Of a stretch of DNA of 64,000 bases, positions 1 to 16,225 are shown piece by piece. Source of the stretch: Rhizobium sp. 32-5/1 (lineage in GTDB: Bacteria > Pseudomonadota > Alphaproteobacteria > Rhizobiales > Rhizobiaceae); assembly GCF_029537235.1 (NCBI RefSeq), contig NZ_CP120639.1:1-64000 (forward strand). Reading direction: 5' to 3'. A program made the translations under genes and the position numbers. Numbering within the stretch: the stretch's first letter is position 1; the number at the start of each line of letters is the position of its first letter. The notes under the pieces were generated by a model. It was given only the letters and a program-made list of their open reading frames with translations, searched no databases and was not told the DNA's origin.

Positions 1-2462
1 ATGAACCGCCAACTGAAACCCGGTGAAGCCATCCGCTACTGGCAACTCGGGAGGATTGCCGAGGAACGCTTCGACGTGCCCGACGCGCCGATGAAGGGCG
101 AGATGGATCCGTTTTTCTTCCTCACCAAGCACAAGAACTTCATTCCACATGAATATCCCTGCCGCACACTCTTTGCTGAGGAGTATCGCGGCAAGCGCCC
201 CGATGTGCGAGGTGCCTTCGAGGCCGCCCGCTGGTGGCTGCCTTTCGGCTCCCCACGGCTAGACCTTTCAGGTTTCTGGTTCCGCCCGACACGCCTCGCC
301 ACCTTCGCCCGCACCTTCATCGCTACAGAAAAGGCAGGCATCGCGAAGATTCGTCTTGGCACTTGCGGCGGCGCGGTCCTTTGGCTGAATGGCACGGAAG
401 TTGGCTGGATGGCACCCTATAGCCGAAATCTCGAGGCAAAAGCCGAATTCGACCTGCCGCTGCAGGAGGGGTTGAACGAGGTCACCATCTTCTTCGACGA
501 TCTTGCAGAACGCGATGCCCGCTATTTCTTCCAGCTTGACTACCTCGACGGCCCGGCCGCGAGCGTTGCCATGCCCGTGCCGATCGACGGCAAGGTCGCC
601 GAGACGATTGAGGCGGCGCTCGAAAACATGCATTTCGACCGTACGGCCTATTTCGAAAGTGACATCACCCTTCTGCTCGCCGAGCCGCTGCCGGTCGATG
701 TCGCCGTCAACGTCACGATCGAGGGCGACTTCATGTCAACCGAACACGTCGACTACGATTTCGTCCTCAAGGCGGGCGAAGCGCGACTGGTGATCGGCCC
801 TTCGGAAAAGGCGCCTGCCGATTTCCGTCATTTTCGCATCACCCTCAAGGCCGGCGGTTTCGTGGCCTCGCGCTCGCTCGGCATCGAAATCTGCCACACT
901 GGCCGCCAAGGCAAAGCACCGGCCACGCTTACTGAGCGCATTGCCGAGACACTGAACGAAGTCTCAGAATTCTCCGAACGCGATACGGTCCGTGCTTTCG
1001 CGCGGCTCGCAAACGGCCTTGGCGGCGCCGACACCGACGCGATGATCGAGGAAATCCTGCCGTCGATTGAGGATTGCCACGACTGCGCTGACTTTTCCCT
1101 CGTCCCGCTGATCTGGTCGCGCACCGTCTGGGGCAATGATATCGGCAAGGCGACACGCGATCACATTGACCGTGCCATCCTTGGTTTTCGATATTGGATG
1201 GACGAGCCCGGCAATGACGTGCAGTGGTATTTTTCAGAAAACCATTCGCTTCTGTTCCACACCTCCGCCTATCTCGCCGGGCATCTTCTCTCCGGCGAAA
1301 CCTTCGCCCGCTCTGGCCGCAAGGGCACCGCGCAAAGCGCCATAGGTGCCGCCCGTGTCCGTGCCTGGCTCGATCATTTCGAGGCTTGGGAAATGGCGGA
1401 ATTCAACTCCGCGCCGTACTTCCCGATCGATCTTAAGGGACTGACGGCGCTAGCGGCCTTGTCGCCTGACCCCGATATCGCCGCGCGCGCCACAAAGGGC
1501 ATCGTTCGTCTCTGCGAAGTCATCGCCCGCTCGGCCCATCACGGCATGGTCACGGCAGCACAGGGGCGCTCCTACGAGCACACGCTGTGCGCCGGCCGCT
1601 CGCTGGAGCTTTCGGGCGTCGCCCGTCTGCTCTGGGGAACAGGCTGGTATGGGCGGCGCGTCCACGCTTTGCCGCAGCTTGCCGTCTGCCTGCGTGATCA
1701 TGGCCTGATCATCCCTGAAACACTTGCCACCGTTGCCAGCCATCAAGCGGATGAGCATCAGGAATGGCGGTTTGCGCAAGGCCAGGACCGGTTCGCAGCA
1801 CTGTATCATTACAAGGGCCGCGACTTCGCCATGGGTTCTGCTGCTCATTACCGCTGGAACGAATGGGGCTATCAGGAAACAATCCTGCATCTACGCTTGG
1901 GCCAACGGCCGGAAGCAGCCGTCTGGATCAATCATCCCGGCGAAACAATTCAGTTCGGGTACGGCCGGCCGTCTTTTTGGGGTGGTTGTGGCACCCTCCC
2001 TCGCGCCCACCACTACCGGGGGCTGGCCGTACTCGACTTTCTGACCTTCGAAGAGCAACCGGATTTCACCCATGCCTGGTTCCCGGTCGCTGAGTTCGAC
2101 GAAAGTACAGTCCGCGGAAAGCTTGCCATGGCCCGCAGCGGTGGCGGCGGGGTGATCCTTTGGGCAGCACCGATCTGCAGCCGGTAACGACAGGCCCTTC
2201 GGCCAATGCCGAATTGCGCCAGTACGGCCAGAACACCCGCTGGATCGTGCGCGTCTGCGAAGCGCCGGATCTTGCAACGGTGGAAAGCCGGTTTGCATCG
2301 CTTTCCGTTGAAGAGACGGCCGATGGCTCACTGGTCATCGAAGACCCCGATTATGGCACCGTCACGTTTCGCAAGGACGGCGCGGTAGATGCGGAAGGTC
2401 GGACGATTGTTCCGAAAGATTTCACGATCGCCGGCGAGGTCACCATGCTCGCCACACACTGA
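1..2462 (+). pseudogene. large uncharacterised protein heading a uronate/sugar operon, frameshifted
   Basis: Opens with ATG at the first base (anything upstream lies outside the window) and reads 728 codons to a stop ending at 2187. The protein clearly continues in the next frame from 2160 to 2462. Restoring one G to the run at 2162-2164 joins the two into about 820 residues. I do not recognise a named family. Residues about 85-185 look like a beta-sandwich of the type attached to carbohydrate enzymes (LWLNG at 127-131, then a Leu-Asn-Glu-Val strand). The middle part is helical and carries ENH near 413 and RSYEHT near 523. No signal peptide is visible. It precedes a CUT1 sugar importer and KduD on the same strand, so cytoplasmic attack on an imported uronate-containing oligosaccharide is my inference, not a family assignment. 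Confidence 0.6.
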
Positions 2463-2545
2463 CGAGACAGCGCCGGCATGGAGAAGCTGGCGATCATTCG
2501 AATGTGGGCAAGGAGAAGGCCCGCACCCTGAGGAGGAGAAAGACA

Positions 2546-3814
2546 ATGACCAGAACCAGAACGATGCTTGCGGCATTTGCCGTCGGGCTTTTGACATCCA
2601 CGGCGGCCATCGCCGGGGACGTGCGTATTATGTGGTATTCCGATGGCGTCGAAGGCGAAGTCCTCAAAGACCTCGTCGATCGCTTCATGAAGGACAATCC
2701 GGACATCAATGTCATCATCGACAATGTGTCCTTCAGCGTCGTGCGCGAACAGCTGCCGGTGCAGCTCGAAGCTGGCGACGGGCCGGATATCGCCCGTCTC
2801 GCCAATATCAAGGCGCTCAGCAAGCATTGGCTCGATCTGCGGCCTCTCGTGGAAGATCCTGCTTACTGGGATACGAATTTCGGCGATCAGGCCGACTGGA
2901 TGCGTCCCGACGGCTCCAACCAGATTTCCGGCTTCATGACGCAAATCACGCTTACCGGCGGCTTTGCCAACAAGACATTGTTCGACCAGGCCGGCGTCGC
3001 CCTTCCCGGCAAGGACGCAACCTGGGACGATTGGGCAAAGGCTTCCAAACAGGTCGCCGAAAGCCAGCAGATACCGTTCCCGATGGCGCTCGACCGATCG
3101 GGGCATCGTCTGACCGCGCCCGACCTTTCGTTTGGCGCGAACTATATCGGAGCCGACGGCAAGCCGGCACCGCTGGATGATGGCGCGAAGGGCTTCATAT
3201 CCAAGTTTATCGGCTGGATCGAAGACGGCACGATGAGCAAGGACATCTGGGTCTCCGCCGCAGGCTCGACCTACCGCGCCGGCGCCGACGACTTCATCAA
3301 CGGCCAGGTCGCCTACTACTATTCCGGCTCCTGGCAGGTGCCGAACTTCTCGACCAAGATAGGCTCGAACTTCGACTGGGTCGCGACAGGAAGCCCATGC
3401 GGCCCGGCAAACTGCACCGGCATGCCTGGCGGCGCCGGCCTCGTGGCGATCAAATATACGAAAAACCCGAAGGACGTCGCCAAGGTCATGGATTATCTCG
3501 CAAGCGAGCCGATCGTGAAGGAGTTTTCCGAACGCACGCTGTTCCTGCCGGCGCACAAGGGCGTGATCGAAAAGGGGCTGGACTTCAAGACTGACGACGC
3601 TCAGGCCAAAGCGGCTCTCGACATCTTCGTAACGGCAACGACGGGCTTGTCCGATCTGGCACGCAAACTGCCGGGTTGGGCTTGGTCCGATACCGTCTAC
3701 GGCGCGCTCGTCACGCGCGTCAGCCAGGCGGCGGCGGGTGAAATGACGCTGGATGAGGCCTATACCCGCATTGACGCGGATATCGCCGCCAAGGTCAAGG
3801 ACTCGGCTCTCTAG
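2546..3814 (+). CDS. sugar ABC transporter substrate-binding protein (CUT1)
   Basis: Periplasmic binding component of a CUT1-type (MalE/UgpB-like) importer that delivers an oligosaccharide to the two permeases downstream. 422 residues, usual for the family. I place the start at ATG 2546 because AGGAGGAG sits about 7 bases upstream and the protein then begins with a textbook Sec signal peptide (MTRTRT, a hydrophobic core, Ala-Ile-Ala cleavage region near residue 23). The in-frame extension to 2504 has neither. The mature part has the two-lobe pattern of solute-binding proteins, with a C-terminal helical region ending in LDEAYTRIDADIAAK. First of four transporter genes reading the same way. The substrate is not readable from sequence; the adjacent KduD suggests an unsaturated uronide or pectin/glycosaminoglycan oligomer. 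Confidence 0.9.
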   Translation: MTRTRTMLAAFAVGLLTSTAAIAGDVRIMWYSDGVEGEVLKDLVDRFMKDNPDINVIIDNVSFSVVREQLPVQLEAGDGPDIARLANIKALSKHWLDLRPLVEDPAYWDTNFGDQADWMRPDGSNQISGFMTQITLTGGFANKTLFDQAGVALPGKDATWDDWAKASKQVAESQQIPFPMALDRSGHRLTAPDLSFGANYIGADGKPAPLDDGAKGFISKFIGWIEDGTMSKDIWVSAAGSTYRAGADDFINGQVAYYYSGSWQVPNFSTKIGSNFDWVATGSPCGPANCTGMPGGAGLVAIKYTKNPKDVAKVMDYLASEPIVKEFSERTLFLPAHKGVIEKGLDFKTDDAQAKAALDIFVTATTGLSDLARKLPGWAWSDTVYGALVTRVSQAAAGEMTLDEAYTRIDADIAAKVKDSAL

Positions 3815-3918
3815 GACACGAATACGCGGGCGGCGGCCATCACGACCAGCCGTCCGCTTGATGTCAACCTTGGCCGAGCATGTGCGCCGTTTACCGGGCA
3901 AAAGGAAAGTGATCAACG

Positions 3919-4959
3919 ATGGCAGAGATATCCCGCCAGACCAGCCAGCGCCGGGCCGGCCAGAACCTAGGCGACATGGCCATGGTGCCGGTTCGCCTTG
4001 CTATGGGCCTGATCGACGCGCCCTTGCGCTGGGTCCAGAAGACCTTCGGTCTCGGCGGCATGGCCGCATTTTTCCTGCTGCCGAACATGCTGATCTTCGG
4101 CATCTTCGTTCTTCTGCCGTTCTTCATCAACTTCGCCTATTCCATGACCGGTGGCACGGCGCTGTTCCTCTCGGACCGCAGCTTCGTCGGCTCCGATCAA
4201 TATGCGCGGCTGTTCGATTGCTCGAACTACCTCAACCCCAATACCTGCGCCGAAGACACTTTCTGGACGGCTGTCAGCAATACCGGCTGGTTCGTCATCC
4301 TGCAGGTCACGCTGATGATCGGCTTTTCGCTGGTCACCGCCCTGATCCTCAATCGGGACCTGATGGCGCGCAGCTTCTGGCGGGCGGTGTTCTTCTTCCC
4401 GGTGCTGCTGTCGCCGGTGGTCGTCGGTCTCATCTGGAAATGGATTCTGCAGCGGCAGGGTCTTTTGAACTTCGGTCTATATGGTTTCGGCTTTGAACCG
4501 CATGTCTGGCTCACCGATAGGAACTGGGCCTTTGCGGCAACCGTCGGCGTATCGATCTGGGCGCATATGGGCTTCTATACGCTGATCATTCTCGCCGGGC
4601 TGCAGGCTATCCCGAAGGACCTTTACGAGGCGGCCGAGATGGATGGGACGCGCGCCATGCGGGTCTTCACCCGCATCACCCTGCCGCTTTTGATGCCCAA
4701 TCTGCTCGTCGTCATCGTGCTGGTCCTCATCCGCGCGGTTCAGATCTTCGACGAGGTCTATGTACTGACCGGCGGCGGGCCGGGCACCAGCACGCTGTTT
4801 GTCACGCAGTACATCTATGAAACCGGCTTTGCGGCGCAACTGCGCAATCCCGGCCTTGCCGCCGCCGCCTCGATCCTGATGGGTTTGGTGCTCGTTCTCC
4901 TCACACTCATGCAGCTCGGGCTTAGCCGTTCGAGCGAAAAGAAGGGAGCCCGCAAATGA
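3919..4959 (+). CDS. sugar ABC transporter permease (MalF/UgpA-like)
   Basis: Inner-membrane permease of the CUT1 importer, 346 residues. After a basic cytoplasmic N-terminus come about six hydrophobic helices, beginning with MAAFFLLPNMLIFGIFVLLP. The cytoplasmic EAA loop that docks the ATPase is visible near residue 237 (EAAEMDGTRAMRVFTRITLP). The extracellular loop after the first helix holds two Cys (CSNYLNPNTC), which may form a disulfide; that is inference. It starts about 100 bases after the binding protein and its last codons overlap the next permease by 4 bases (ATGA), indicating translational coupling. Confidence 0.92.
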   Translation: MAEISRQTSQRRAGQNLGDMAMVPVRLAMGLIDAPLRWVQKTFGLGGMAAFFLLPNMLIFGIFVLLPFFINFAYSMTGGTALFLSDRSFVGSDQYARLFDCSNYLNPNTCAEDTFWTAVSNTGWFVILQVTLMIGFSLVTALILNRDLMARSFWRAVFFFPVLLSPVVVGLIWKWILQRQGLLNFGLYGFGFEPHVWLTDRNWAFAATVGVSIWAHMGFYTLIILAGLQAIPKDLYEAAEMDGTRAMRVFTRITLPLLMPNLLVVIVLVLIRAVQIFDEVYVLTGGGPGTSTLFVTQYIYETGFAAQLRNPGLAAAASILMGLVLVLLTLMQLGLSRSSEKKGARK

Positions 4960-6008
4960 GCCGGGCCATCGAATTCCTGTTTCGCCGCAGGGGCGGCAAA
5001 GGCTGGCACTGGACGGATATCGTCACCTGGATCTGGCTCATCGTCGGCCTGTTCGTGATGTTCGGCCCGGCGGTGTGGCTGACGGCATCCTCGTTCAAGT
5101 CGCCGGCGGCGCTGGCGGAATTCCCGCCGACCATACTGCCCTATGTCACCCAGAAGGTGACGGTCGAAGGTTATGACAAACCGCTCGATCTTTACACCGT
5201 GACGCTTGACGACGGCAGCACGGCAACGCTTGCGGAGATCCGCCGCATTGGAACCGTCAGCCAGATGATCGATCCCGATAAGCCCGCCGAGATCGTCAAG
5301 GTCAATATCGCCAAGCGCACGCCAGTCCGGCAGATGTCGTTCGCGACCGAGAACTATACAGAGCCGTTCATCCATTTCGATTTTGTTCGCTACCTCTGGA
5401 ATTCCGTCTTCGTCACGGTGACCGCAACGCTGATCACGCTTGTCGTCAACTCCATGGCGGCGTTCGCGCTGAGCAAATACGAATTCCGCGGCCGGACCTT
5501 CGCGATGCTGTTGATCCTCGCGACACTGATGGTGCCGCTGTCGGTCATCATGGTGCCGCTCTATTCGATCGTCTCGGCACTCGGCCTGTTCAACAATCTC
5601 TGGGGCGTTATCCTGCCGACGGTGGCGACGCCGACCGGCGTGTTCATCCTGCGCCAGTATATGTTGACCATTCCCGATGAACTGCTCGACGCCGCCCGCA
5701 TGGACAAGGCATCGGAATGGCAGATCTACTGGCGCATCATCCTACCCCTGACCGCACCGGCGCTCGCCGTCCTCGCTATCTTCTCCGTCGTCTGGCGCTG
5801 GAACGACTTCCTCTGGCCGTTGATCGTGCTCTCGCGCAAGGAGCTTTATACGCTTCAGGTGGGTCTCAGCATCTATTCCGGCGAATTGAACGTGCAATGG
5901 CATTTCATCCTCGCGATGACCGTCGTGACCATGATCCCCGTCGTCCTGGTCTTCCTCTTCCTGCAGCGCTTCATCACCACCGGCATCGCCGGAACCGGCC
6001 TGAAATAA
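4956..6008 (+). CDS. sugar ABC transporter permease (MalG/UgpE-like) with long periplasmic insert
   Basis: Second inner-membrane permease of the CUT1 importer, 350 residues, larger than the usual 270-300. The extra length lies between the first membrane helix (about 24-46) and the conserved core. Residues about 52-130 form a hydrophilic, strand-rich insert (for example KPLDLYTVTLDDGSTATLAE) predicted to lie in the periplasm, where it could contact the binding protein. The EAA loop is at about residue 246 (DAARMDKASEWQIYWRIILP). Start overlaps the stop of the first permease as ATGA. Ends 9 bases before the ATPase gene. Confidence 0.92.
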   Translation: MSRAIEFLFRRRGGKGWHWTDIVTWIWLIVGLFVMFGPAVWLTASSFKSPAALAEFPPTILPYVTQKVTVEGYDKPLDLYTVTLDDGSTATLAEIRRIGTVSQMIDPDKPAEIVKVNIAKRTPVRQMSFATENYTEPFIHFDFVRYLWNSVFVTVTATLITLVVNSMAAFALSKYEFRGRTFAMLLILATLMVPLSVIMVPLYSIVSALGLFNNLWGVILPTVATPTGVFILRQYMLTIPDELLDAARMDKASEWQIYWRIILPLTAPALAVLAIFSVVWRWNDFLWPLIVLSRKELYTLQVGLSIYSGELNVQWHFILAMTVVTMIPVVLVFLFLQRFITTGIAGTGLK

Positions 6009-6017
6009 GGGTGCACC

Positions 6018-7103
6018 ATGGGACACATTAAGCTCACTAACATAACAAAGTCATTCGGCGCGATCGACGTGATCCACGGTATCAACCTGGAGATCGCGGA
6101 TGGCGAACTGATCGTCTTCGTCGGACCATCCGGCTGCGGAAAGTCCACGCTTCTGCGCATGATCGCCGGCCTCGAGAAGCCGACAGGCGGTGAACTCCTC
6201 ATTGATGGGACGTTGGTCAACAACATGCCTGCCTCCGACCGGGGCCTTGCTATGGTGTTCCAGTCCTATGCGCTTTACCCGCACATGAGCGTGCGCCAAA
6301 ATCTCGCGTTCGGGCTCGAAAACAGCAAGATGCCAAAGGGCGAGATCGACACCCGCATCACTGAGGCCGCCCGCATGCTGGAGATCGAACACTATCTCGA
6401 CCGGCGGCCGGGGCAACTCTCCGGCGGCCAGCGCCAGCGCGTGGCCATTGGCCGCGCCATCGTGCGCCGCCCGGTCGCCTTCCTGCTCGACGAACCGCTG
6501 TCCAACCTCGACGCCGAACTGCGCGGCTCCACCCGCGCCGAACTGGCAGCCCTGCATGCCCGGCTTTCGGCAACCATGATATATGTGACCCATGATCAGA
6601 TCGAGGCGATGACCCTTGCCGACCGGATCGTCGTCCTGCGCGCCGGCCGCATCGAGCAGGTGGGTACGCCGATGGAGCTCTACAATACACCCGCCAACCG
6701 CTTCGTCGCGGGCTTCATCGGCTCGCCGCACATGAATTTTCTCGAAGGTACGGTGGAAGCCTCATCCTCCGCCAAGGCCATCGCCACCTTTACTGGAGGC
6801 AACAGGCTGGAACTGCCGGTGGCCGGAGAAAGCATAGGCAACGGCGCGCGCATCACGCTCGGTGTGCGCCCGCAGCACATTTCTATCGGCTCCGGCACTG
6901 AGGGCATCCCGGCCAGGATCACGCTAGTCGAGGCACTTGGTTCCGAAACCATCGTCCACACCGATGTTTCGGGCCAGAAAATACTGGTCGTCGCCCCCGG
7001 CCAGCACAACCTGATCCCGGGAACGGATATCCGTCTGTCGCTGTCGGAGGCTCCACTGCATCTGTTCAATGAGAAGGGGTTGCGTCTTGAACACGCTGTT
7101 TGA
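6018..7103 (+). CDS. sugar ABC transporter ATP-binding protein (UgpC/MsmK family)
   Basis: ATPase that energises the CUT1 importer, 361 residues. Walker [10 protein letters not shown] at residues 36-44, Q-loop in [14 protein letters not shown], signature [14 protein letters not shown] near 134, Walker B AFLLDEP near 155, and H-loop YVTHDQ. The C-terminal third (from about 235) is the TOBE/MalK regulatory region. Complete and in frame. Its end overlaps the beginning of the dehydrogenase gene, so transport and catabolism are transcribed together. MalK-type ATPases are sometimes shared between importers; this one lies with its own permeases. Confidence 0.93.
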
Positions 7104-7845
7104 TCTGTCCGGCAAGATTGCGCTGGTCACCGGCGCACGAACCGGCCTCGGCAGGGGCATGGCCTTGGCGCTTGCTCGCGCAGGCGCCGATATTGCAGCG
7201 CTCGGCTCCAGCGCGATGCCGGAAACAGCCGAAGCCATCCGCCAGATAGGCCGCCGTTTTCACGCGCTCCAAGTCGATCTTTCCAGGAAAATCGATACAG
7301 GGGCCATCCTGAATTCGATTGCCGCAGAACTGGGCGGGATAGATATCCTCGTCAACAATGCCGGCATCATCCGCCGGGCCGATCTGCTCGACCATTCGGA
7401 AGAGGACTGGGATGCTGTCATCGACGTCAACCTGAAATCCGCATTTCTGCTATCACAGGCCGTTGCCCGACACATGGTCGAGACGAAGCGTGCCGGACGC
7501 ATCGTCAATGTCGCGTCGATGCTGTCCTTCCAGGGTGGCATTCGCGTGCCGGCTTACACTGCATCCAAGCATGGTATCGCCGGACTGACGAAGGCGATGG
7601 CCAATGAACTGGCACCGCATGGTATCACGGTGAACGCCATCGCGCCCGGCTATATGGAAACCGACAATACCGAAGCATTGCGCAACGATAAGAACCGAAA
7701 CGCCCAGATTTCTGCCCGCATTCCAATAGGGCGCTGGGGTGTACCGGATGATATCGCGACATCCATCCTGTTTCTGACTTCCCCTGCCTCCGGCTACGTT
7801 ACCGGCATCACCGTGCCAGTCGATGGTGGCTGGCTGGTGCGGTAG
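7087..7845 (+). CDS. kduD: 2-dehydro-3-deoxy-D-gluconate 5-dehydrogenase
   Basis: Short-chain dehydrogenase closely matching KduD, which interconverts 2,5-diketo-3-deoxygluconate and 2-keto-3-deoxygluconate with NAD in the degradation of unsaturated uronic acids from pectin and related polymers. The nucleotide-binding motif TGARTGLG starts at residue 15, NNAGIIRR and [13 protein letters not shown] follow, and the catalytic Tyr157/Lys161 are in YTASK. I choose the TTG at 7087, preceded by GAGAAGGGG, rather than the upstream ATG at 7069; this gives 252 residues against about 253 for the known enzyme, and [12 protein letters not shown] aligns with its N-terminus. Last gene of the operon starting at base 1. 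The overlap with the ATPase gene supports co-expression. Confidence 0.9.
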
Positions 7846-8211
7846 TTAAGAACTCAAATGGCACCCCTGCTTGTTCGACCTTGGGTCGTCAAGATCTGCC
7901 GAGTGAGGCCCTGATGGACGTGTTGCAAAGATCCTGACGACGATCACGTCAACATTGATTTTGGCCCTACGGAGCCACCAAAATTGCTTCATTCATCGAT
8001 ATGGGAGCAGGTCGCTCAACGCCTTCGCGGGACGCACGCAGGATCCTGTGAGTCCACGAACATTCTACCCACAAGCGTCGCGCGCGCTGCCGGTCTCCAC
8101 ACCCTCAGACACTCCAGTACCTCGCCCAGCCGTCTTGAGTACCGCGCGCAAACCGCGTGTTGTCAGACAAAATATAATAATGTCTAACATCCATTGTTTA
8201 GGGAGTCGTCG
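7846..8211. other. 366 bases without a recognisable gene
   Basis: No open frame here has a convincing start or resemblance. No hairpin terminator is evident after kduD. The only suggestive element is an AT-rich patch (AAAATATAATAATG, around 8169-8182) shortly before the antitoxin-like frame, which could hold its promoter. Confidence 0.5.
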
Positions 8212-8561
8212 ATGACAAAACAGAGCCGCCAAAAAACATCGCATCTTCATCGCCGGGCGGACTTCTGACAACGGCGGCCCGGTCCGCGAAGGCTGGGCAA
8301 TTCGTAACGCTCAGCAAGGCCCGGTTCGAGGCCGTGATGAAAGCCGCTGAACATTCCGGCTTGCTGGGTGAAAAGAGCAAGCGGATAGGCGGCCGCATCA
8401 GCCCTGCTCTCATTGAACAGGCGAAAAAACATACGGGTATCGAGACAGACACAGATCTGATCGAGTTTGCACTGGCAAATGTGGCCCTGGACGACAATTT
8501 CGGAGCCACGTTCCGAAAGACGCAAGGCACAGTAGATCCCGATCTGAAGCTGGGTTTCTGA
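8212..8561 (+). pseudogene. putative antitoxin partner of a PIN-domain protein, frameshifted at start
   Basis: Small protein of about 116 residues whose body is open to a stop at 8561. In its frame there is no ATG before 8337, although the coding pattern extends back to about 8212. The ATG at 8212 (MTK...) is in the neighbouring frame and hits a stop after 18 codons. Adding one A to the run at 8217-8220 would connect ATG 8212 to the body. The C-terminal half (ISPALIEQAKKHTGIETD, then DLIEFALANVAL) is helical, as expected for a small DNA-binding or neutralising partner. The next gene starts 1 base after its stop, typical of toxin-antitoxin pairs. Function is inferred only from this arrangement. 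Confidence 0.5.
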
Positions 8562-8562
8562 A

Positions 8563-9131
8563 TTGTCAGACTTTGATTTCGACGCGGCGGTCCGCTGGGC
8601 TCGCTTTGATCCCTATCGAACTCTTGCGCGACGTCAGGACGATGAACTCCCTTTCGCCAGCGATCGGGCAGATAGCGGCCAGGAGCTTCTTCTCGATACG
8701 TGTGTGTATATCGACGGCCTGCAGGGACGTGCGCCCGACATCGTCGCCGATCTTCTGGATATTAGAATAAGCAATCATTCGACCGTGGCTATTCAGGAGT
8801 TGATGCACACTGTCGGCGTCCTGGATCCCAAGCATGCAGGGACCAAGCGAGCGGTGCGGCAGATCGGCGTGACCATCACGGACATGAAGCCGCACCGCAT
8901 TTTCGCGCCCGATCCAGACGTGCTGGGCCCGGCAGCACTCCTATCCGGCATGCTATGCCGCCTTCAGGGCTATGAAAAAGATGCGCGTCTGCGGGCACTG
9001 CATGACTGTGTTCTTTTTTGCAGGCACAGAAAATGGGCTTTACGGTCCTCACGGCCAACGTCAGCGACTTTGACTACCTTCTGCAGTTGATCCCGACCGG
9101 ACGGGCTTTGTTTTATAGAGCCGCGCAGTAA
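8563..9131 (+). pseudogene. PIN-like domain protein (probable toxin), frameshifted near C-terminus
   Basis: Begins with TTG one base after the upstream small gene. LLLDTCVYIDGL near residue 45 is the first acidic motif of PIN-type ribonucleases, followed by IQELMHT and a helical region. The frame as read ends at 9090 after an arginine-rich tail that looks like noise. In the next frame the protein continues as LQAQKMGFTVLTANVSDFDY, the usual last acidic motif of PIN domains, to a stop at 9131. One missing T in the run at 9014-9019 accounts for the break. If intact it would be about 189 residues with a roughly 35-residue N-terminal extension. Role as a VapC-like RNase toxin is inference from the fold and pairing. 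Confidence 0.6.
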
Positions 9132-9367
9132 CCTGAGTTACCAAATGTTGAGGTTTGTTCAATAGGTTCGGCTGGCGCGTTAAGTTGTGCGTACGCGCGA
9201 TCCTTTGCCTGTCTCGGCCTAGAAGCTGTTTTGGCAGCATTACATCGGTCCGGCCGTGTCTCCCTATGGAATAATCAGTTGCGGTAGAAGGCAGACATCC
9301 CGTCCTTTTTACGCGGAATCACTGACGCTGATTTCACCCTGGGAAAAGATCAAACCGCACTGGGTTC
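9132..9367. other. 236-base stretch without a recognisable gene
   Basis: No supported coding region. The last codons before 9368 are open back to a TGA at 9329 but do not resemble the upstream part of a DUF4143 ATPase, so the fragment that follows appears truncated here. Confidence 0.4.
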
Positions 9368-9691
9368 TTGTTCGAAACGTATGTCTATACTGAGCTTCTG
9401 AAATCGCTCGCCATGCGGCGGGACGAATGGCGGCTCTTCCATTGGCGAGACCGAAACGGCCCCGAAATCGATATTCTCGCGGAGAATGGAAATCTTCTCG
9501 TAGGACTGGAGATGAAAGCGTCTTCTACCGTGACATCCAGTGACTTCAAAAACTTTCGGTTATTCAAGGATGGTCCTGGAAAAAATGGGACTTCATTGGA
9601 TTGGTCATTTACATGGGACCAGGTATTGGTTTTTGGTGATCTACATTTCGCACTGCCCATATCAATTTTCAGCTCGTTTTCTCCGGACTAG
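9368..9691 (+). pseudogene. C-terminal fragment of a DUF4143-type AAA ATPase
   Basis: About 107 codons matching only the end of bacterial AAA ATPases that carry a C-terminal DUF4143 domain: FETYVYTELLKSL, then RDRNGPEIDILAENGNLLVGLEMKAS, the restriction-endonuclease-like tail. The P-loop ATPase part is absent, and only a TTG could serve as start. Within the tail the neighbouring frame reads WDFIGLVIYMG over 9597-9630, closer to the family than the frame quoted, so two small indels may be present. I regard it as a non-functional remnant next to a decayed toxin-antitoxin pair. Confidence 0.65.
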
Positions 9692-10018: not shown

Positions 10019-11425
10019 ATGCAGCAATATAATGGAAAAAGTGCGATCCTCTGCAGTCTCTCGGCGCTTTTCTTTCTTTCATTTATTGTTCTAGCGTCGC
10101 AAGCTTTGGCTCAAGGAACAGCCTCACATAAAGCACTTGATGGTGTGGCGCTCGTGATTGGGAATTCCGCCTATCAATCTGCCGGTGCTCTGGCCAATCC
10201 CGCCAACGATGCGACGGCAATCGCTGAGAAGCTTCAGGGCCTGGGATTCAGGTTGCATACGGCCGTTGATCAGCCGGGAGACGTTCTCAAAGAGACGATA
10301 GATGCCTTTGCGCGTGACCTTTCGAGTGCCGATGTCATATTCGTTTTTTATGCCGGTCATGGCATGCAGATCGACGGCCGAAATTTTATAGCGCCGGTCG
10401 ATCTTGCAAGAACCGGCGGCCCGAAGCAATTGATTGCCGTCGATACCATCCTCTCAACGATCGAGGTTCATGCCAAGCCGGATGCGGCCAAGATCATCGT
10501 TCTCGACGCATGCCGCGACAATCCATTCAGCGAGCTCGGGCACGGCGGTGAGACATCGCGCGGCCTGGCAAGGATCGAGCTGCCGAAGCCGGCAGTTACT
10601 GGATCCGCAGGGGGCTATTTTCGAGTCGTGGCCTTTGCCACGGCGGCAGGGCAAGTAGCGTCCGATGGTAACGGTCAACACAGTCCCTATACCGAAAGCT
10701 TGCTTCGCTTCATCGACCAGCCTGGTCTTGAAGTCTCCGAGATGTTCCGGATGGCGGCTGGTGACGTGCTTGCCAGCACGGGTGGCATGCAAAAACCGGA
10801 ATATCTCGTTCAGACAAGCCGGACGCTGTTCTTCCGGCCGCCCAACATAACAGAATGCGATCGATTGGCAGTGGATGCCCGCAACTTCATTGGGATGAAA
10901 GGAATCTCTTTCGAGGACATCGATGCGATCAAAGCGGTTCCGGCTTGCCTCGAGGCGGTGGCGACCGAGCCCGCCAGCGCGCGATTGACCCACAATCTGG
11001 CGCGATCGCTGGAAAAAGCCGAGCGACTTTCCGAAGCTTTGGAACAATATCAAGCCGCGGCCGACAAAGGACACCCGGCCGCAATCAATGCTCTTGGTAT
11101 CATGTATCTCGCCGGTTGCGGCATGGCCAAACCGGACGTCGGGAAAGCGCTCCAGCTGATCTCCCGAGCCCGTGATCTGGGGGACCTGGAGGCCGGTGCC
11201 ACGCTCACGTCGCATGATCTCCTGCCCTTTTTGTCAGACGACGGCAAGACGGCTCTTGCCGATGCACTGTCCAATGCGGGTATCTCAGCACGCCCGGATG
11301 CTCTGGGAGCGGCCGTTTCCGCATTCCAGGAGCAGGAGCGATTGAAGATTGGCGGGCTGACGCTCGAGACGGTTCATGCCTTGAAAATCTACGAAACCGT
11401 ACCGGCGGGTTTCCGGTGCCACTGA
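10019..11425 (+). CDS. exported caspase-like (peptidase C14) protein with TPR/Sel1-type repeats
   Basis: 468 residues. The N-terminus is a signal peptide or signal anchor (basic start, hydrophobic 10-31, Ala-Gln-Gly), so the protein should act in the periplasm or at the membrane. Residues about 40-270 form a caspase-like domain: VALVIGNSAYQ at 43, FYAGHGMQ with catalytic His114, and VLDACRDNPF with catalytic Cys165, both dyad residues intact. From about 310, helical repeats of TPR/Sel1 type follow (EALEQYQAAADKGHPAAINA, GIMYLAGCGMAKPD), then a tail resembling a peptidoglycan-binding helix bundle (FQEQERLKIGGLTLETVHAL). Bacterial caspase homologues usually cleave after Arg or Lys; the substrate here is unknown. 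The next gene follows after about 20 bases, and two LprI-like exported proteins complete the unit. Confidence 0.85.
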   Translation: MQQYNGKSAILCSLSALFFLSFIVLASQALAQGTASHKALDGVALVIGNSAYQSAGALANPANDATAIAEKLQGLGFRLHTAVDQPGDVLKETIDAFARDLSSADVIFVFYAGHGMQIDGRNFIAPVDLARTGGPKQLIAVDTILSTIEVHAKPDAAKIIVLDACRDNPFSELGHGGETSRGLARIELPKPAVTGSAGGYFRVVAFATAAGQVASDGNGQHSPYTESLLRFIDQPGLEVSEMFRMAAGDVLASTGGMQKPEYLVQTSRTLFFRPPNITECDRLAVDARNFIGMKGISFEDIDAIKAVPACLEAVATEPASARLTHNLARSLEKAERLSEALEQYQAAADKGHPAAINALGIMYLAGCGMAKPDVGKALQLISRARDLGDLEAGATLTSHDLLPFLSDDGKTALADALSNAGISARPDALGAAVSAFQEQERLKIGGLTLETVHALKIYETVPAGFRCH

Positions 11426-11446
11426 AGGGTGGCAGGAGGGGAGACG

Positions 11447-12697
11447 ATGAGAACACACATGATGACGGCCGCGCTGCTCTGCGCGTCGATACCTCCCGCA
11501 TCGGCGGGTGGGCTGATCGAAAATTTCAAGACACCGGCTGAATGCCAAGACGCAGGCGACCTCAAGATTGAGACTTGCCTGGCAGCACTCGGTGGGGGCC
11601 TTGATGCGGAGGTTGATAGCCGGCTTTCAGCCGTGCTTGCCGCGTCTGCTGAGCCGGACAGCGTGCGTGCCGCGCAGGACGCCTGGGTCGCTTACCGGAA
11701 AGCGACATGTGATTACTTCGCCGGTCAGGAAGGTATAGCTGGAATTATCCAAGGGCTGCAGTGCCTTCGCTGGACATCTTGGGGCCGCATGAAGGAGCTT
11801 GACGGACTTCTTGGCATAAGGCCCGCCGAAGATGACGGCGAAGGCGAGGCTGCTGGCGGGCTCGAACCCGACTTCGCCACGCTGGCCGATACGCAGTATT
11901 CCGGTCGGGCTTTCTCCTTTGGCGACTTCAGCTGGTACATCAAGAAGCGCTATGGCGCGGTGCTCGTCGAGAAGGCGCTTGCGGCTCGAGGATTTGATCG
12001 TGAAACGGCGAAGGCCCTTGCCGGAAATTGGGATGCCTGGCGCTATCATCCGGAAAATGGACAGCCGCTGATCGAGAGCGCACCGCTCGGCGCCAGCGAT
12101 ACGGATCTTCAAGGGTTGGCAGCCAAGTTTCCGGAATGCATGCGTGATCTTGGAAAGGCCAATTGCAGGATCAACTATTCGATCGAGATTGGCTGCAAGC
12201 TGGACCCGGCCGTTGCCCAGGAATGCCAAGGCGTATTCGATGTTCGTCAGTCTATTGCCGCTGGCTATCAACGCGATGGGCGCACCGCCTACATGCTCTC
12301 CGGCTTCCAGCCGCAGGGCGTCTACGATATGGCGGGCTGCATCATGGAAGGTGGCAAGGGTGCCGGCGTCCCGCTTTTTGCGCCTGACAATGCCGAAACC
12401 GTTGCCAAGCTCACTTTCATTGCCCAACCGGACGCGGTCGCTACAGAACAGAAAGTGGTTGATATCGAGGCTCTTCCTGAGCGAGATGCCGAGCTTTGCA
12501 GTGTTGCCGCAGGCTGGAAATTGGACGAAAACGGCGCTCAGACGTCAAGCGGATTGTTGGATCTGGCTCCGTTCACCCAAGACGGCGTGTTTTCGCAATA
12601 CCTGGAAGAGGGCCTGACGCCTGACGCCTCCCGCGATGCAGACTATAACGATTTCCTGCAACGGGTGACGAAAGCTGTCGGGGAGGTCAGACAATGA
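11447..12697 (+). CDS. exported LprI-like (DUF1311) protein, paralogue 1
   Basis: 416 residues from ATG 11447, preceded by GGAGGGGAG; the in-frame GTG at 11429 lies before the ribosome site. Signal peptide MRTHMMTAALLCAS...ASAGG. Residues about 25-120 are an LprI/DUF1311-type domain (RAAQDAWVAYRKATCDYF with paired Cys, then CLRWTSWGRMKELDGLLG), a fold first known from a lysozyme inhibitor. The C-terminal two thirds are shared with the next gene: WDAWRYHPENGQPL, then FPECMRDL...CRINYSIEIGCKLD, with many conserved Cys that suggest disulfides in the periplasm. Located between a caspase-like protein and its own paralogue, overlapping the latter by 4 bases. Substrate, inhibitor or chaperone of the protease are all possible; no function is established. 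Confidence 0.75.
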   Translation: MRTHMMTAALLCASIPPASAGGLIENFKTPAECQDAGDLKIETCLAALGGGLDAEVDSRLSAVLAASAEPDSVRAAQDAWVAYRKATCDYFAGQEGIAGIIQGLQCLRWTSWGRMKELDGLLGIRPAEDDGEGEAAGGLEPDFATLADTQYSGRAFSFGDFSWYIKKRYGAVLVEKALAARGFDRETAKALAGNWDAWRYHPENGQPLIESAPLGASDTDLQGLAAKFPECMRDLGKANCRINYSIEIGCKLDPAVAQECQGVFDVRQSIAAGYQRDGRTAYMLSGFQPQGVYDMAGCIMEGGKGAGVPLFAPDNAETVAKLTFIAQPDAVATEQKVVDIEALPERDAELCSVAAGWKLDENGAQTSSGLLDLAPFTQDGVFSQYLEEGLTPDASRDADYNDFLQRVTKAVGEVRQ

Positions 12698-13842
12698 GAC
12701 GATTATCAATAAGCCTCGCGCTCATCGCGATCTGCATGCTTCTAAATCCGAATATCGCCGGCGCGCAGGATATTTCCGATTGCGAGCGCAATGCTCTTGG
12801 AACGGAGCGTTGTGCGAACTGGCAGGCTGCCGTCCAGGCCGTGTCCTTGCAACAGACGGTCGAGCGGCTCGATAGCCACATTGCGGAGCTTGCCAAGGCC
12901 GGTCGCATCGCGCCCGAAGATGCCGAGGCACAACGCCGGAAGCTCGTCGCCTCGCAGGCCGCGTGGGAAATCTATCGCGACAGGCAATGTGCACTCGTCG
13001 GTGCGCATCCTGAAGGGCCAGCCGCTTGCCTCCGCATCTTGACTGAGGCAAGGGTCCTCGAATTGCAGGATCCCGATATACCGGAGCAGAGTTTCAAGCA
13101 CAGGAGCTGGTCCGAACGCAGATTGCTGCAGGGCCAGTTCCAGCCGCAGGAATTGGTCATGTTGCGGCTTGCCGGACCGCCGCTGCGAACCGTGGCCGAC
13201 CGCGTAGCCCTCGCCAAGGGGCCGCGCCAGACGCAAGACTGGAATTTCCGGAAATCGGTAAGCGACCTCCAGCAGAAACTCCGCGAGGTCAGCCGCTTTG
13301 GCCCTCTCACCTCCAGTTTCATAGCCGCTGAATGGGATGCGCTGCGATACGATCCCGAGACCGGCGCACCCCTGCATCAGTTCCCCGAACGCATCGAGGG
13401 TAGTCCGGCAGACAACACCTGGGACAAAAATGAGTCTCAGGCTTTCGCTGCGCGACTGCCTTCCTGCTTGCGCAATCTGGCCGATCCCCAATGCAGGGTA
13501 CAGTATTCGACCGAGCTCGGATGTCGCTATGACACCGACATGGCAGCCTTTTGTCAGTCGAAACTCGACGGCCTCAAAGAGGTCTTCCAGTCCTATTCCG
13601 TGACAGACCCGCGGCACCGGGACGAGGTCTACAAAGCCATAGCTTGCCTCACACCGGCTCCGCTGGATCAACCCTTATCGGGCACCTTTCTCGTTCCAGA
13701 CACTGCTCAAAACGCAAGGCTTGAGCCGGGTAACGTCGAAGGCAGGCCGTGCTCAGAGCTTGGCCTGGAGGTGGATGGCGACGGTTGGTCGGCGCGTTCA
13801 GTACGAGTTTTCGACTCGACAATGGATCTAGAGATCCGCTAG
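12694..13842 (+). CDS. exported LprI-like (DUF1311) protein, paralogue 2
   Basis: 382 residues. Start ATG 12694 overlaps the previous stop (ATGA). Signal peptide MRRLSISLALIAICMLL...AGAQD. An N-terminal LprI-like domain (CERNALGTERCANWQ, SQAAWEIYRDRQCALVG, CLRILTEARVLEL) is followed by the same C-terminal module as paralogue 1: WDALRYDPETGAPL, LPSCLRNLADPQCRVQYSTE, LGCRYD. The spacing of Cys and aromatic residues is conserved between the two, so they arose by tandem duplication and diverged strongly. Together with the upstream caspase-like gene they form a tight three-gene exported unit. I do not know a described function for this module. Confidence 0.75.
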   Translation: MRRLSISLALIAICMLLNPNIAGAQDISDCERNALGTERCANWQAAVQAVSLQQTVERLDSHIAELAKAGRIAPEDAEAQRRKLVASQAAWEIYRDRQCALVGAHPEGPAACLRILTEARVLELQDPDIPEQSFKHRSWSERRLLQGQFQPQELVMLRLAGPPLRTVADRVALAKGPRQTQDWNFRKSVSDLQQKLREVSRFGPLTSSFIAAEWDALRYDPETGAPLHQFPERIEGSPADNTWDKNESQAFAARLPSCLRNLADPQCRVQYSTELGCRYDTDMAAFCQSKLDGLKEVFQSYSVTDPRHRDEVYKAIACLTPAPLDQPLSGTFLVPDTAQNARLEPGNVEGRPCSELGLEVDGDGWSARSVRVFDSTMDLEIR

Positions 13843-14029: not shown

Positions 14030-14440
14030 GCATAAAGTACTGGGCTCCTTGTCGGATCGCAGTTGCATGGTCTTGCTGGGCGCAGGGCTTGCAAAGCAAA
14101 AAGGTTGCCGAACGTCAGGGTGTTCGCGAGCACACGGTTGGCAATTGGCGCGACCATCGAAATGGTCAGTGCGCTCGAACAGGAGAAGGCCAAAGGCGGA
14201 GCAGGCCAGATCTCGGTGACCTTGGTCTGCCTCCTAGACGAGTTGGGATACCTGCCGTTCGGCGCCTCGGGCGAAGCACTGCTGTTCTACCGGTTGAGCA
14301 AGCTCTATGAGCGGACCAGCGTGGTGATCGCCACCAACCTCGGCTTTAGCAAATGGGCAACCGTCTTCGGCGACCCAGAACGACCACCGCTTTGCTCGAC
14401 CGCTTGACCCACCGTAGCGGAGGCGGAAATCATGACCGAT
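14030..14440 (+). pseudogene. istB: IS21-family istB (transposition helper ATPase) remnant
   Basis: Contains the second half of an IstB ATPase: MVSALEQEKAKGG, a Walker B-like CLLDELGYLPFG, SKLYERTSVVIATNLGF and WATVFGDPE. Then, after a frame change, come traces of TALLDRLTHR. The P-loop half is missing or scrambled, no istA is present, and no terminal repeats were found. IstB normally forms a DNA-bound ATPase helping the IstA transposase choose its target; this copy cannot work. It separates the caspase-like operon from the diguanylate cyclase gene and marks an old insertion. Confidence 0.65.
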
Positions 14441-14503
14441 TTTGTACAAAGTCGAGCTTAGAGAACATTTAATTAGACGGTGCGATAATTCGCTCTGATT
14501 GAA

Positions 14504-16225
14504 TTGAAGATCCTGCGGCGTACCGCAGAGACGGAATGGACTGGATCAGTTTATCAGATGCTGAGGGCAGAACTTGAGAAATCTTGGGTGGAATGTGGTT
14601 CCGGCGAGCCGCTTCAAGCGCTCGCCCGCCTCCGATCCGTCGAGGTTTTCGTTACTGCACAAAACGACCCACAACTGCTGTTTCGCTACGAGTGGCTGCA
14701 GGGTTGGATTTTGTTCCAGCTGGGAGAGACCGAACAGGCTTTCGGTCATGTCCAGACGGCACGCGCCCTCTCGGCAACCCTTGATCACTCTTCGCAAGCG
14801 AACGCATTGACCCTGGGGGCATGGATCCTATCCAACCTTGGTCTTTTGGACGAAAGCTATTCGGTCGCCCGCGCGGCTGTCAATCTGGCGGAAACAGGCG
14901 ACAATAACTTCGCGCTGGCGCTGGCCTTACACGTTTTTGCGCTCATCGCCTGGATGGGAGGCGACATTCCACTGGCGCTGGACACTTCGCAGCGGGCCAT
15001 TGCGATCGCCCGAACACTTGCCGACACCCATGTCCTTTGCTGGTCTCTGTTTGGGCGTGGGTGCATGGTGGCCGACGAGGCAAGGGAAGCGCGCCAAAAC
15101 GGCGACGACACCATTTTCGTTTCGGGCCATGAGGACGCAATTGCGCTTACCGACGAATCTTTGGCGCTGTCACGCGACAATTCAGACAGCTGGGCGCGTC
15201 GCGTATCCCTTACAAACAAAGCCGAATACTTTTGTTATATTGGGCGCTTTGCGGAAGCACACTCCGCCCTTGAAGAATGGACGATGGTGAAAGGACCCGT
15301 CTCCAACCGTCGTAGGATCCAGTATCTCAAGACGTATGCGGAAATCCTGCAGCGGGAGGGCCGCATCGGGGAGGCGCGCGAGTATTGCGAACAAGCCGTT
15401 CAGTTGACGGCCAACATTGGAACTGCCGATCTAAAGCATCTGTGCACCAAGGCACTTTCGGAAATCCACGAAACCATGGGTGACTTCGAGAAGGCGCTTC
15501 AACTTCATAAACGATTCTTCCGGGAGGTTCAGCAATTTGAGGGCGAGAAGGTCAAATGCCGGGCGCGCGTGGCCGAAATCTTCTACGAGGCGGAAAAGCT
15601 CCGCGAACGGGCCGAAATGTCTCGCCAAGTTGCAGAGCAGTCCAAGCGGGAGGCTTTAACTGATTCACTCACCGGCGTTGCCAATCGCCGTTGGATGGAA
15701 CAGGAATTCGATGGTCTGATTGCCAGCGGTACCTGGTTCGCCGTCGTTTTCGCTGACCTTGATCACTTCAAAGCGGTTAACGACACATATTCTCATGCCG
15801 TAGGCGACGAGGTTATTAAGGCCTTTGCGAATATGGTCTCGACTTGCTTCCGCGCCAACGATCTGGTTGCCCGTATCGGGGGTGAAGAATTTGTGGTTCT
15901 GGTCAAAGACGCCAAGGAGCACAACCTGTCATTAATTGGGGACAAGCTTCTGTGTTGCACGCGCAGCTATGAATGGACGCGTATCGCCCCCGGCCTAAAG
16001 ATAACAACCAGCATCGGCCTGGCGTGTTCCAAGGAAGTAGTCGGCCGGGATGCCTTGTTGGCCCTGGCTGACGCCAGACTATATCGTGCGAAGACCACGG
16101 GACGCGACCGCTACGTGTCCAAGGGAGAACTCCCTCGATGTTGCATGCAGTGTAGCAAAGGTTTGGGTCCCGTTTATCAGCCCTTCATGTTAGAAAGTTG
16201 CAGAACTGATCGAAAGGCACCGTAA
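14504..16225 (+). CDS. diguanylate cyclase with N-terminal TPR region (GGDEF)
   Basis: 573 residues from a TTG at 14504; an ATG at 14558 is an alternative start, and neither has a strong ribosome site. Residues about 20-370 are TPR-like helical repeats (AFGHVQTARALSATLDHSSQ, ESYSVARAAVNLAETGD, EAREYCEQAVQL). A coiled linker (EAEKLRERAEMSRQVAEQ) leads to the GGDEF domain at about 385-545: TDSLTGVANRR, DLDHFKAVNDTYSHAVGDEV and GGEEF at 459-463. The RxxD inhibitory site (RAND, 450-453) lies five residues before it. It should make cyclic-di-GMP from GTP with product inhibition. No membrane segment, so cytoplasmic. The TPR part probably senses a protein partner, as in other TPR-GGDEF proteins. Confidence 0.88.
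   Translation: MKILRRTAETEWTGSVYQMLRAELEKSWVECGSGEPLQALARLRSVEVFVTAQNDPQLLFRYEWLQGWILFQLGETEQAFGHVQTARALSATLDHSSQANALTLGAWILSNLGLLDESYSVARAAVNLAETGDNNFALALALHVFALIAWMGGDIPLALDTSQRAIAIARTLADTHVLCWSLFGRGCMVADEAREARQNGDDTIFVSGHEDAIALTDESLALSRDNSDSWARRVSLTNKAEYFCYIGRFAEAHSALEEWTMVKGPVSNRRRIQYLKTYAEILQREGRIGEAREYCEQAVQLTANIGTADLKHLCTKALSEIHETMGDFEKALQLHKRFFREVQQFEGEKVKCRARVAEIFYEAEKLRERAEMSRQVAEQSKREALTDSLTGVANRRWMEQEFDGLIASGTWFAVVFADLDHFKAVNDTYSHAVGDEVIKAFANMVSTCFRANDLVARIGGEEFVVLVKDAKEHNLSLIGDKLLCCTRSYEWTRIAPGLKITTSIGLACSKEVVGRDALLALADARLYRAKTTGRDRYVSKGELPRCCMQCSKGLGPVYQPFMLESCRTDRKAP

Follow-up and report, generated by a model that had tools for sequence, protein, structure and literature searches.

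In a 64 kb stretch of DNA from Rhizobium sp. 32-5/1 (the window, which opens a contig of 1.09 Mb in a genome of 5.62 Mb), three tandem plus-strand open reading frames (ORFs) inside 3.8 kb encode a caspase-fold protease and two partner proteins, A and B, all with N-terminal Sec-type signals as judged by eye, as are all signal sequences reported here. The pairing of this caspase with a cysteine module carried by both partners appears to represent a wider conserved protease-partner system, which is apparently undescribed: as a first-pass annotation of this DNA had supposed for the combination of genes, no account of a caspase paired with such a module was found in the literature searched, a search whose scope lay outside preprints and most subscription papers. 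As judged from sequence, the conserved partner of this group of caspases is the five-cysteine module, and the LprI/DUF1311 domain that accompanies it in A and B is not the link. We tentatively favour, at slightly less than even probability, the interpretation that the unit comprises an envelope caspase and a cognate co-exported partner, which most likely gates the protease as an inhibitor or adaptor acting in trans.

The cysteine module and the caspases beside it

The nearest full-length relatives of the caspase are encoded elsewhere in the same genome (C2:190481, 42%), in genomes G692 (39%) and G722 (37%) and on a plasmid of Neorhizobium petrolearium (37%), and each of these four adjoins a gene whose product resembles the C-terminus of A and B and appears by eye to be secreted. 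A profile of the LprI-fused modules (A3) and a profile of the relatives' neighbours (A4), which have no sequence in common, match each other with P=97.1 and E=6.3e-11, and the homology of the modules is thereby established; across 15 modules seven columns are invariant, five of them cysteines. The N-terminal part of the partner, in contrast, is exchangeable. An LprI domain is found there in the window and in Shinella, an unnamed domain of roughly 170-200 residues in the partners of loci L014 and L110 (and, by eye, L108), and lipobox-like starts, again by eye, in those of L081, L082, L109 and L115, while the L080 partner, of 201 residues, consists mostly of signal plus module. No Pfam model matched the nine LprI-less partners (L014, L110, two of L115, L080, L081, L082, L108 and L109), no NCBIfam model the seven LprI-less partners scanned, no PADLOC model A, B or the partners of five relatives, and no PDB chain matched the module profile in a search by sequence. 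The LprI profile, which was built on 13 seeds and may miss distant copies, matched 4 of 32 loci, namely the window and three Shinella loci; it gave no match at the remaining module and caspase loci scanned, nor, apart from the window, at six further loci. Because LprI was found at these four loci only, we do not consider it the key link.

The module profile matched 5 of 394 genomes of the family and 4 of 219 genomes of the order, the window's own genome (G000) being counted in both. The eight strong module loci are the window pair, G000:C2:191866, G722, G692, two loci of G732 (C34 and C12), G736 and G850, the last with two tandem modules, and at seven of the eight a caspase of this type is immediately adjacent, with differing flanks and in either gene order, which establishes the linkage as conserved. 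Four of these loci (both of G732, G736 and G850) had no part in profile building, and three of the four are caspase-adjacent; the chance of such an outcome is about 3e-6, a rough figure derived from the approximately 0.9% of this one genome that lies that close to a C14 domain. In the reverse direction, a caspase search of 297 family genomes, with at most five candidates per genome, listed as matches reaching the C-terminus those of the window, G000:C2:190481, G692 and G722; a module lies beside all three non-query caspases, and it was from these three that the module was first recognised. No module was found at 19 other caspase loci (17 of 20 regions, plus L015 and L016), some of which lie on short contigs. 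Among 72,556 plasmid records, a tblastn search with the G722 partner matched one (E=7e-5), and the gene concerned adjoins a caspase of this group.

In a 32-row tree, the caspases with a module neighbour make up one side of a branch, 11 rows in all, and motifs of the His/Cys dyad are present in each of the 11. Two subclades within this group are firm, one containing the caspases of the window, Shinella and L080 (support 100/99) and the other the remaining module-group caspases (100/98), all six of which carry PG_binding_1 above the Pfam cut-off. Distances between caspases and between modules are correlated over 10 rows (r=0.74 and 0.71, p<0.001) and over 8 rows (r=0.46 and 0.37, p=0.018 and 0.067).

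The L080 locus (G000:C2:184000-198000) is a second caspase-module pair of the same genome, in which the partner gene overlaps the caspase stop; transposase-like ORFs, recognised by eye, flank it on both sides. At L115 (G850, 7711-9456, minus strand) two tandem module genes lie beside the caspase gene, so that a second lineage has a duplicated partner. Three weaker candidates were set aside: those of G989 (E 0.0053, no caspase match in a 10.9 kb contig) and G938 (E 0.0055, containing stops) were left out of the counts, and that of G177 (E 0.009), the sole addition of a class survey of 190 genomes, was rejected as a glycosyltransferase by eye, with no caspase. The G989 protein (L116, G989:C104:2909-3868), weakly module-like, lies beside a large ORF that is TIR-like by eye.

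The three-gene unit in Rhizobium and Shinella

The first-pass annotation had described three tightly spaced plus-strand genes with signal sequences, encoding a caspase-fold protein with intact His114 and Cys165 and two tandem paralogues that combine LprI with a Cys-rich module, and this description holds (Table 1). Residues 42-269 of the caspase match Pfam Peptidase_C14 (E=2.4e-34, 119.4 bits for a cut-off of 21.4), neither His114 nor Cys165 varies in alignments with four and with two relatives, A and B are related by BLASTP (28% identity, E=3e-18), and LprI (PF07007) passes the cut-off of 22 in both, by a slim margin in A (22.4 bits) and more clearly in B (30.3 bits). The start of A had been placed at GTG 11429, which is less likely than ATG 11447 with its strong Shine-Dalgarno sequence AGGAGGGGA, and the TPR/Sel1 repeats ascribed to the caspase are weak in the window protein (E about 0.008-0.013, under the Pfam cut-offs), although the caspases of all six relatives scanned have one or more matches to TPR or Sel1 models above the respective cut-off. 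The stop of A and the start of B overlap in ATGA at 12694-12697.

Table 1. Features of the caspase-partner unit in the window of Rhizobium sp. 32-5/1
Feature	Position	Strand	Basis
Caspase-fold protease with signal sequence, 468 aa	10019..11425	+	ORF; Peptidase_C14; 77% identical orthologues in two Shinella
Caspase signal sequence, approximate	10019..10114	+	By eye: hydrophobic core, ALA-Q
Caspase domain; His114 codon 10358-10360, Cys165 codon 10511-10513	10142..10825	+	Pfam, alignments
TPR/Sel1-like repeats of caspase, weak	10985..11188	+	Below Pfam cut-offs
Degenerate PG_binding_1-like C-terminal domain of caspase	11216..11404	+	Alignment with PG_binding_1 of relatives
Partner A: signal (by eye), LprI and Cys module	11447..12697	+	ORF, Pfam
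LprI/DUF1311 domain of A	11561..11770	+	22.4 bits, cut-off 22
Caspase-associated cysteine module of A	11933..12355	+	Module alignments and profiles
Partner B: signal (by eye), LprI and Cys module	12694..13842	+	ORF, Pfam
LprI/DUF1311 domain of B	12799..13065	+	30.3 bits
Caspase-associated cysteine module of B	13240..13662	+	Cys258, 267, 277, 287 and 318 of B invariant in 15 modules

Shinella sp. WSC3-e has the caspase, A and B genes in this order too, with matches of 79% (caspase), 67% (A) and 52% (B, in two joined pieces), and they are annotated as a caspase family protein and two LprI family proteins; the WSD5-1 record gave equal match figures. A module-alignment scan of contigs from 84,980 species, which required one of two short peptide patterns and may miss relatives, confirmed 2 of 20 candidate stretches, in S. 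yambaruensis and S. lacus, both of which carry all three genes in the same order. WSC3-e and S. yambaruensis have matching flanks, and when S. lacus and the window are compared with these flanks, the unit alone is common to them among the matches listed, besides generic transporter matches. The window unit is accessory, and it is a real three-gene unit that stays together. The expectation that a caspase with a double LprI-like module would recur was borne out in the three Shinella, although the conserved link is the module and not LprI; the unit was also to be considered incidental if homologous caspases lacked the LprI genes, and for the LprI half such a lack is what was found (4 of 32 loci, 0 of 6), yet the cysteine module still follows the caspase group. 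All three genes are under purifying selection, with ratios of nonsynonymous to synonymous substitution rates (dN/dS) of 0.08-0.24 in nine pairwise comparisons among the window, S. yambaruensis and S. lacus, values that are rough in the six comparisons in which dS exceeds 1; the dN of B is higher than that of the caspase.

A search with the full-length partners matched 194 of 394 family genomes; outside the window's own genome, none of the matches listed (at most four candidates scored per genome) extends past position 163 of 381, that is, beyond the LprI half. At the level of the class, five of 385 genomes matched A, at full length in the window's own only; the G249 match lies in a frame that is cytochrome-like by eye, and the other three non-self genomes match the LprI part alone. 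No match to B was found among viral contigs. The genome of the window has 11 C14 matches and three LprI matches, A and B being two of these three.

The unit is bordered by a DUF4143 fragment (window 9368-9691, Pfam) and an IstB/IS21 fragment (window 14063-14407), and the best plasmid matches of window positions 1-7845 and 14458-16166 belong to different Rhizobium strains. With flanks matching plasmids of different strains and fragments at its borders, the region looks mosaic, and on this ground the three-gene unit has probably been moved horizontally. Downstream, at 14504-16225, the window encodes a protein that combines TPR with a GGDEF diguanylate cyclase domain, its DNA 91% identical to a plasmid of Rhizobium sp. 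SL42. In S. lacus a second caspase gene, of another clade, precedes the unit by about 2.8 kb (L047, 3-1112, minus strand).

Proposed gating of the caspase and competing interpretations

The unit probably acts in the envelope, as had been supposed at first. Signal-like N-termini are borne by the caspases of the window, of two Shinella (orthologues 77% identical to it) and of L014, L080, L081 and L082, and the C-terminus of the window caspase aligns with the stretch that scores as PG_binding_1 (PF01471) in relatives, a domain found above the cut-off in six more distant caspases of the group (Pfam, E 6e-11 to 1.3e-8). According to the accessible part of a 2012 survey, a putative peptidoglycan-binding domain occurs in 11 of 671 caspase homologues, N-terminal helices of such proteins may be signals, and the dyad is intact in 75% of the homologues from Alphaproteobacteria (PMC3501461), compared with 11 of 11 in the present group. 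We hypothesize that the caspase is exported and docked on peptidoglycan through its C-terminal domain, degenerate here and recognisable as PG_binding_1 in distant members, and that its partner gates it until released or cut under envelope stress. With a constant module and an exchangeable N-terminus, the five-cysteine module would be expected to be the part of the partner that meets and recognises the caspase, and the N-terminus, be it LprI, a lipid anchor, a bare signal or another domain, the part that sets location or senses the wall. A and B, as two diverged copies, may answer different cues.

As to specificity, among solved structures the paracaspase MALT1 is the closest to the caspase domain in sequence, matched over the catalytic core (E=1.2e-9). 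The alignment designates Asp64 and Asp163 of the window caspase as candidate S1 acids, since the MALT1 acids aligned with them are ones that we take to form the S1 pocket, and for this reason the caspase is likely to cut after Arg or Lys, with a basic residue at P1. The window protein differs from MALT1 in being bacterial, in having a signal sequence and in the wall-binding type of C-terminus seen in its relatives. It shares with bacterial metacaspases and orthocaspases (PF00656) the caspase domain, the His/Cys dyad and the TPR/Sel1 repeats, but no dedicated secreted partner of such homologues was found described, whereas in the present case one group has a conserved protein with the cysteine module at its side. 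The candidate defence model 'caspase' of PADLOC (PDLC02987) matches the caspase domain weakly (E=1e-9), in contrast to the partners, which match no model of that collection.

Several observations weigh against this interpretation. The branch that would give the module-group caspases a single origin has moderate support (83/51), and the 8-row distance correlation is weak when computed with the A copies (p=0.067). The unit is rare: the pattern-limited scan gave two loci among 84,980 species, and 2 of 72,556 plasmid records have it; the module is found in none of the 25 other genomes of the genus, and the L080 partner and one L115 partner gave no plasmid match by tblastn. At L108 (G732:C12:5161-6363) a module with its N-terminal domain has no caspase match in a 14 kb stretch; the query of that search, P0001, likewise failed to find the diverged C14 genes at L131. 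Pfam does not detect PG_binding_1 in the window caspase, nor in those of WSC3-e and L080 despite their corresponding C-termini, and the domain does occur (23.8 bits, cut-off 23) in a Leisingera caspase outside the group, L016, with no module nearby. Finally, the predicted structure of B is poor, with a mean predicted local distance difference test (pLDDT) of 46.7, and the LprI stretch alone, about residues 41-100, is helical, with block means of 65-75.

A close rival to gating, possible though on balance doubtful, is that the partners are dedicated substrates which the caspase cuts between the N-terminal domain and the module, thereby freeing an active fragment. Precedents within the caspase clan, as given in the available excerpts of the published accounts, are Csx30, genetically linked to TPR-CHAT, and the antitoxin encoded beside MaOC1. 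Craspase (TPR-CHAT with Csx30), as described there, has a caspase-like protease that bears TPR and, genetically associated with it, a dedicated substrate, and in this would resemble the present unit, but it is guided by CRISPR RNA, whereas here there are signal sequences and, in relatives, wall-binding domains; no CRISPR effector is among the Shinella locus annotations, in which no search aimed at CRISPR was made. Arg/Lys specificity is predicted from the MALT1-like S1 acids, and the linker of B has a basic stretch, SWSERR, that is unchanged in the window and three Shinella while neighbouring residues vary, although this constancy rests on about three independent sequences and was spotted post hoc. 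Against cleavage and release, it is the module that is conserved and not the linker, and the short L080 partner, signal plus module, leaves little to release.

We regard as unlikely the proposal that the LprI domain is central, with A and B protecting or controlling wall-lytic enzymes and the caspase degrading or trimming them. A and B do pass the LprI cut-off of Pfam, and the accessible portion of PMC7933661 ties ScwA, an LprI protein of Salmonella, to cell-wall homeostasis; A and B are like ScwA and the LprI of Mycobacterium tuberculosis in the LprI domain and in several cysteines, as far as that portion describes them (PMC7933661), but differ in fusing LprI to the cysteine module, in adjoining a caspase and in matching no MliC model of Pfam. 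LprI was not found at the module and caspase loci scanned outside the window and Shinella, which speaks against its being central, as does the B protein of S. lacus, which falls below the LprI cut-off (18.7 vs 22). The first-pass annotation had relied on LprI as a lysozyme inhibitor, which is weak ground: in the same portion of that paper the LprI domain of ScwA gave no lysozyme resistance, the second domain of M. tuberculosis LprI, MliC, is described as sufficient, and ScwA does not support lysozyme inhibition by LprI alone (PMC7933661).

More improbable still is an effector/immunity pair, in which a caspase harmful in the periplasm would be held off by the partners as immunity proteins. Such a role would explain duplicated, diverging partners, and tandem partner duplicates do occur in two lineages (window/Shinella and G850) and the dN of B does exceed that of the caspase; however, the caspases read by eye bear signal-like N-termini of their own, and no domain for toxicity or delivery was named when caspases of the module group were scanned with Pfam. 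That caspase and partners are incidental neighbours, as the 19 caspase loci lacking a module and the restriction of LprI to 4 of 32 loci might suggest, is very improbable, given that the pairing recurs at seven of eight strong module loci with differing flanks and in either gene order.

Cytochrome-linked loci and significance of the system

The caspase/module pair of L014, like that of L115, has as neighbours a NOX-like flavocytochrome (Ferric_reduct, FAD and NAD domains) and a protein of 1092-1157 residues with four CxxCH motifs, a multiheme cytochrome c; an OmpA gene stands in between at L014, an OmpA homologue is nearby at L115, and L081 has a shorter homologue of the cytochrome. A search of the six genomes with strong modules, which were chosen for their modules so that the rate is not unbiased, gave four more full-length cytochrome and reductase pairs, L131 (G000:C1:365000-384000, in this genome), L132, L133 and L134, further partial cytochrome matches being left out of the locus counts. 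Within the stretches examined, a C14 or CHAT gene is present at five of the six full-length loci, L014 and L115 included, the exception being L134 on a contig of 5,960 bases; at L135, with a shorter cytochrome homologue, the P0001 query gave no caspase match. The cytochrome of this recurring neighbourhood (L131, L014, L115, L132 and L133) has roughly 1100-1200 residues, OmpA homologues are found at L014, L115, L132 and L133, and cytochrome matches occur in 25 of the 26 genomes of the genus (E<=1e-60). Neither the module nor LprI was found at L131-L135.

The N-terminal domain of the L110 partner was also encountered elsewhere. At L133 it is fused to CHAT, and on a plasmid of Roseateles sp. XES5 (L121, 198635-210946) genes for OmpA, a protein with an L110-type N-terminal domain and weak Sel1, a CHAT protein and a PG_binding_1 protein stand in a row.

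These neighbourhoods admit a reading in which envelopes of Rhizobiales type have a redox-linked caspase system and the window unit represents its stand-alone form, the module cysteines acting as a redox switch that frees the protease in a periplasmic cytochrome c-to-caspase circuit. We consider this improbable, and it is weakened by the window locus, which has no cytochrome or flavoreductase genes, and by the cytochrome-linked proteases of L131-L133, which have no module.

What caspase homologues do in prokaryotes is, according to PMC3501461, largely unknown. For one group of them, the conserved secreted partner is a candidate regulator or substrate which can be purified and assayed together with its protease. 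Furthermore, should the cytochrome-linked loci prove to be part of this system, an environmental bacterium would offer a way to test whether cytochrome c is linked to caspase-fold proteases.

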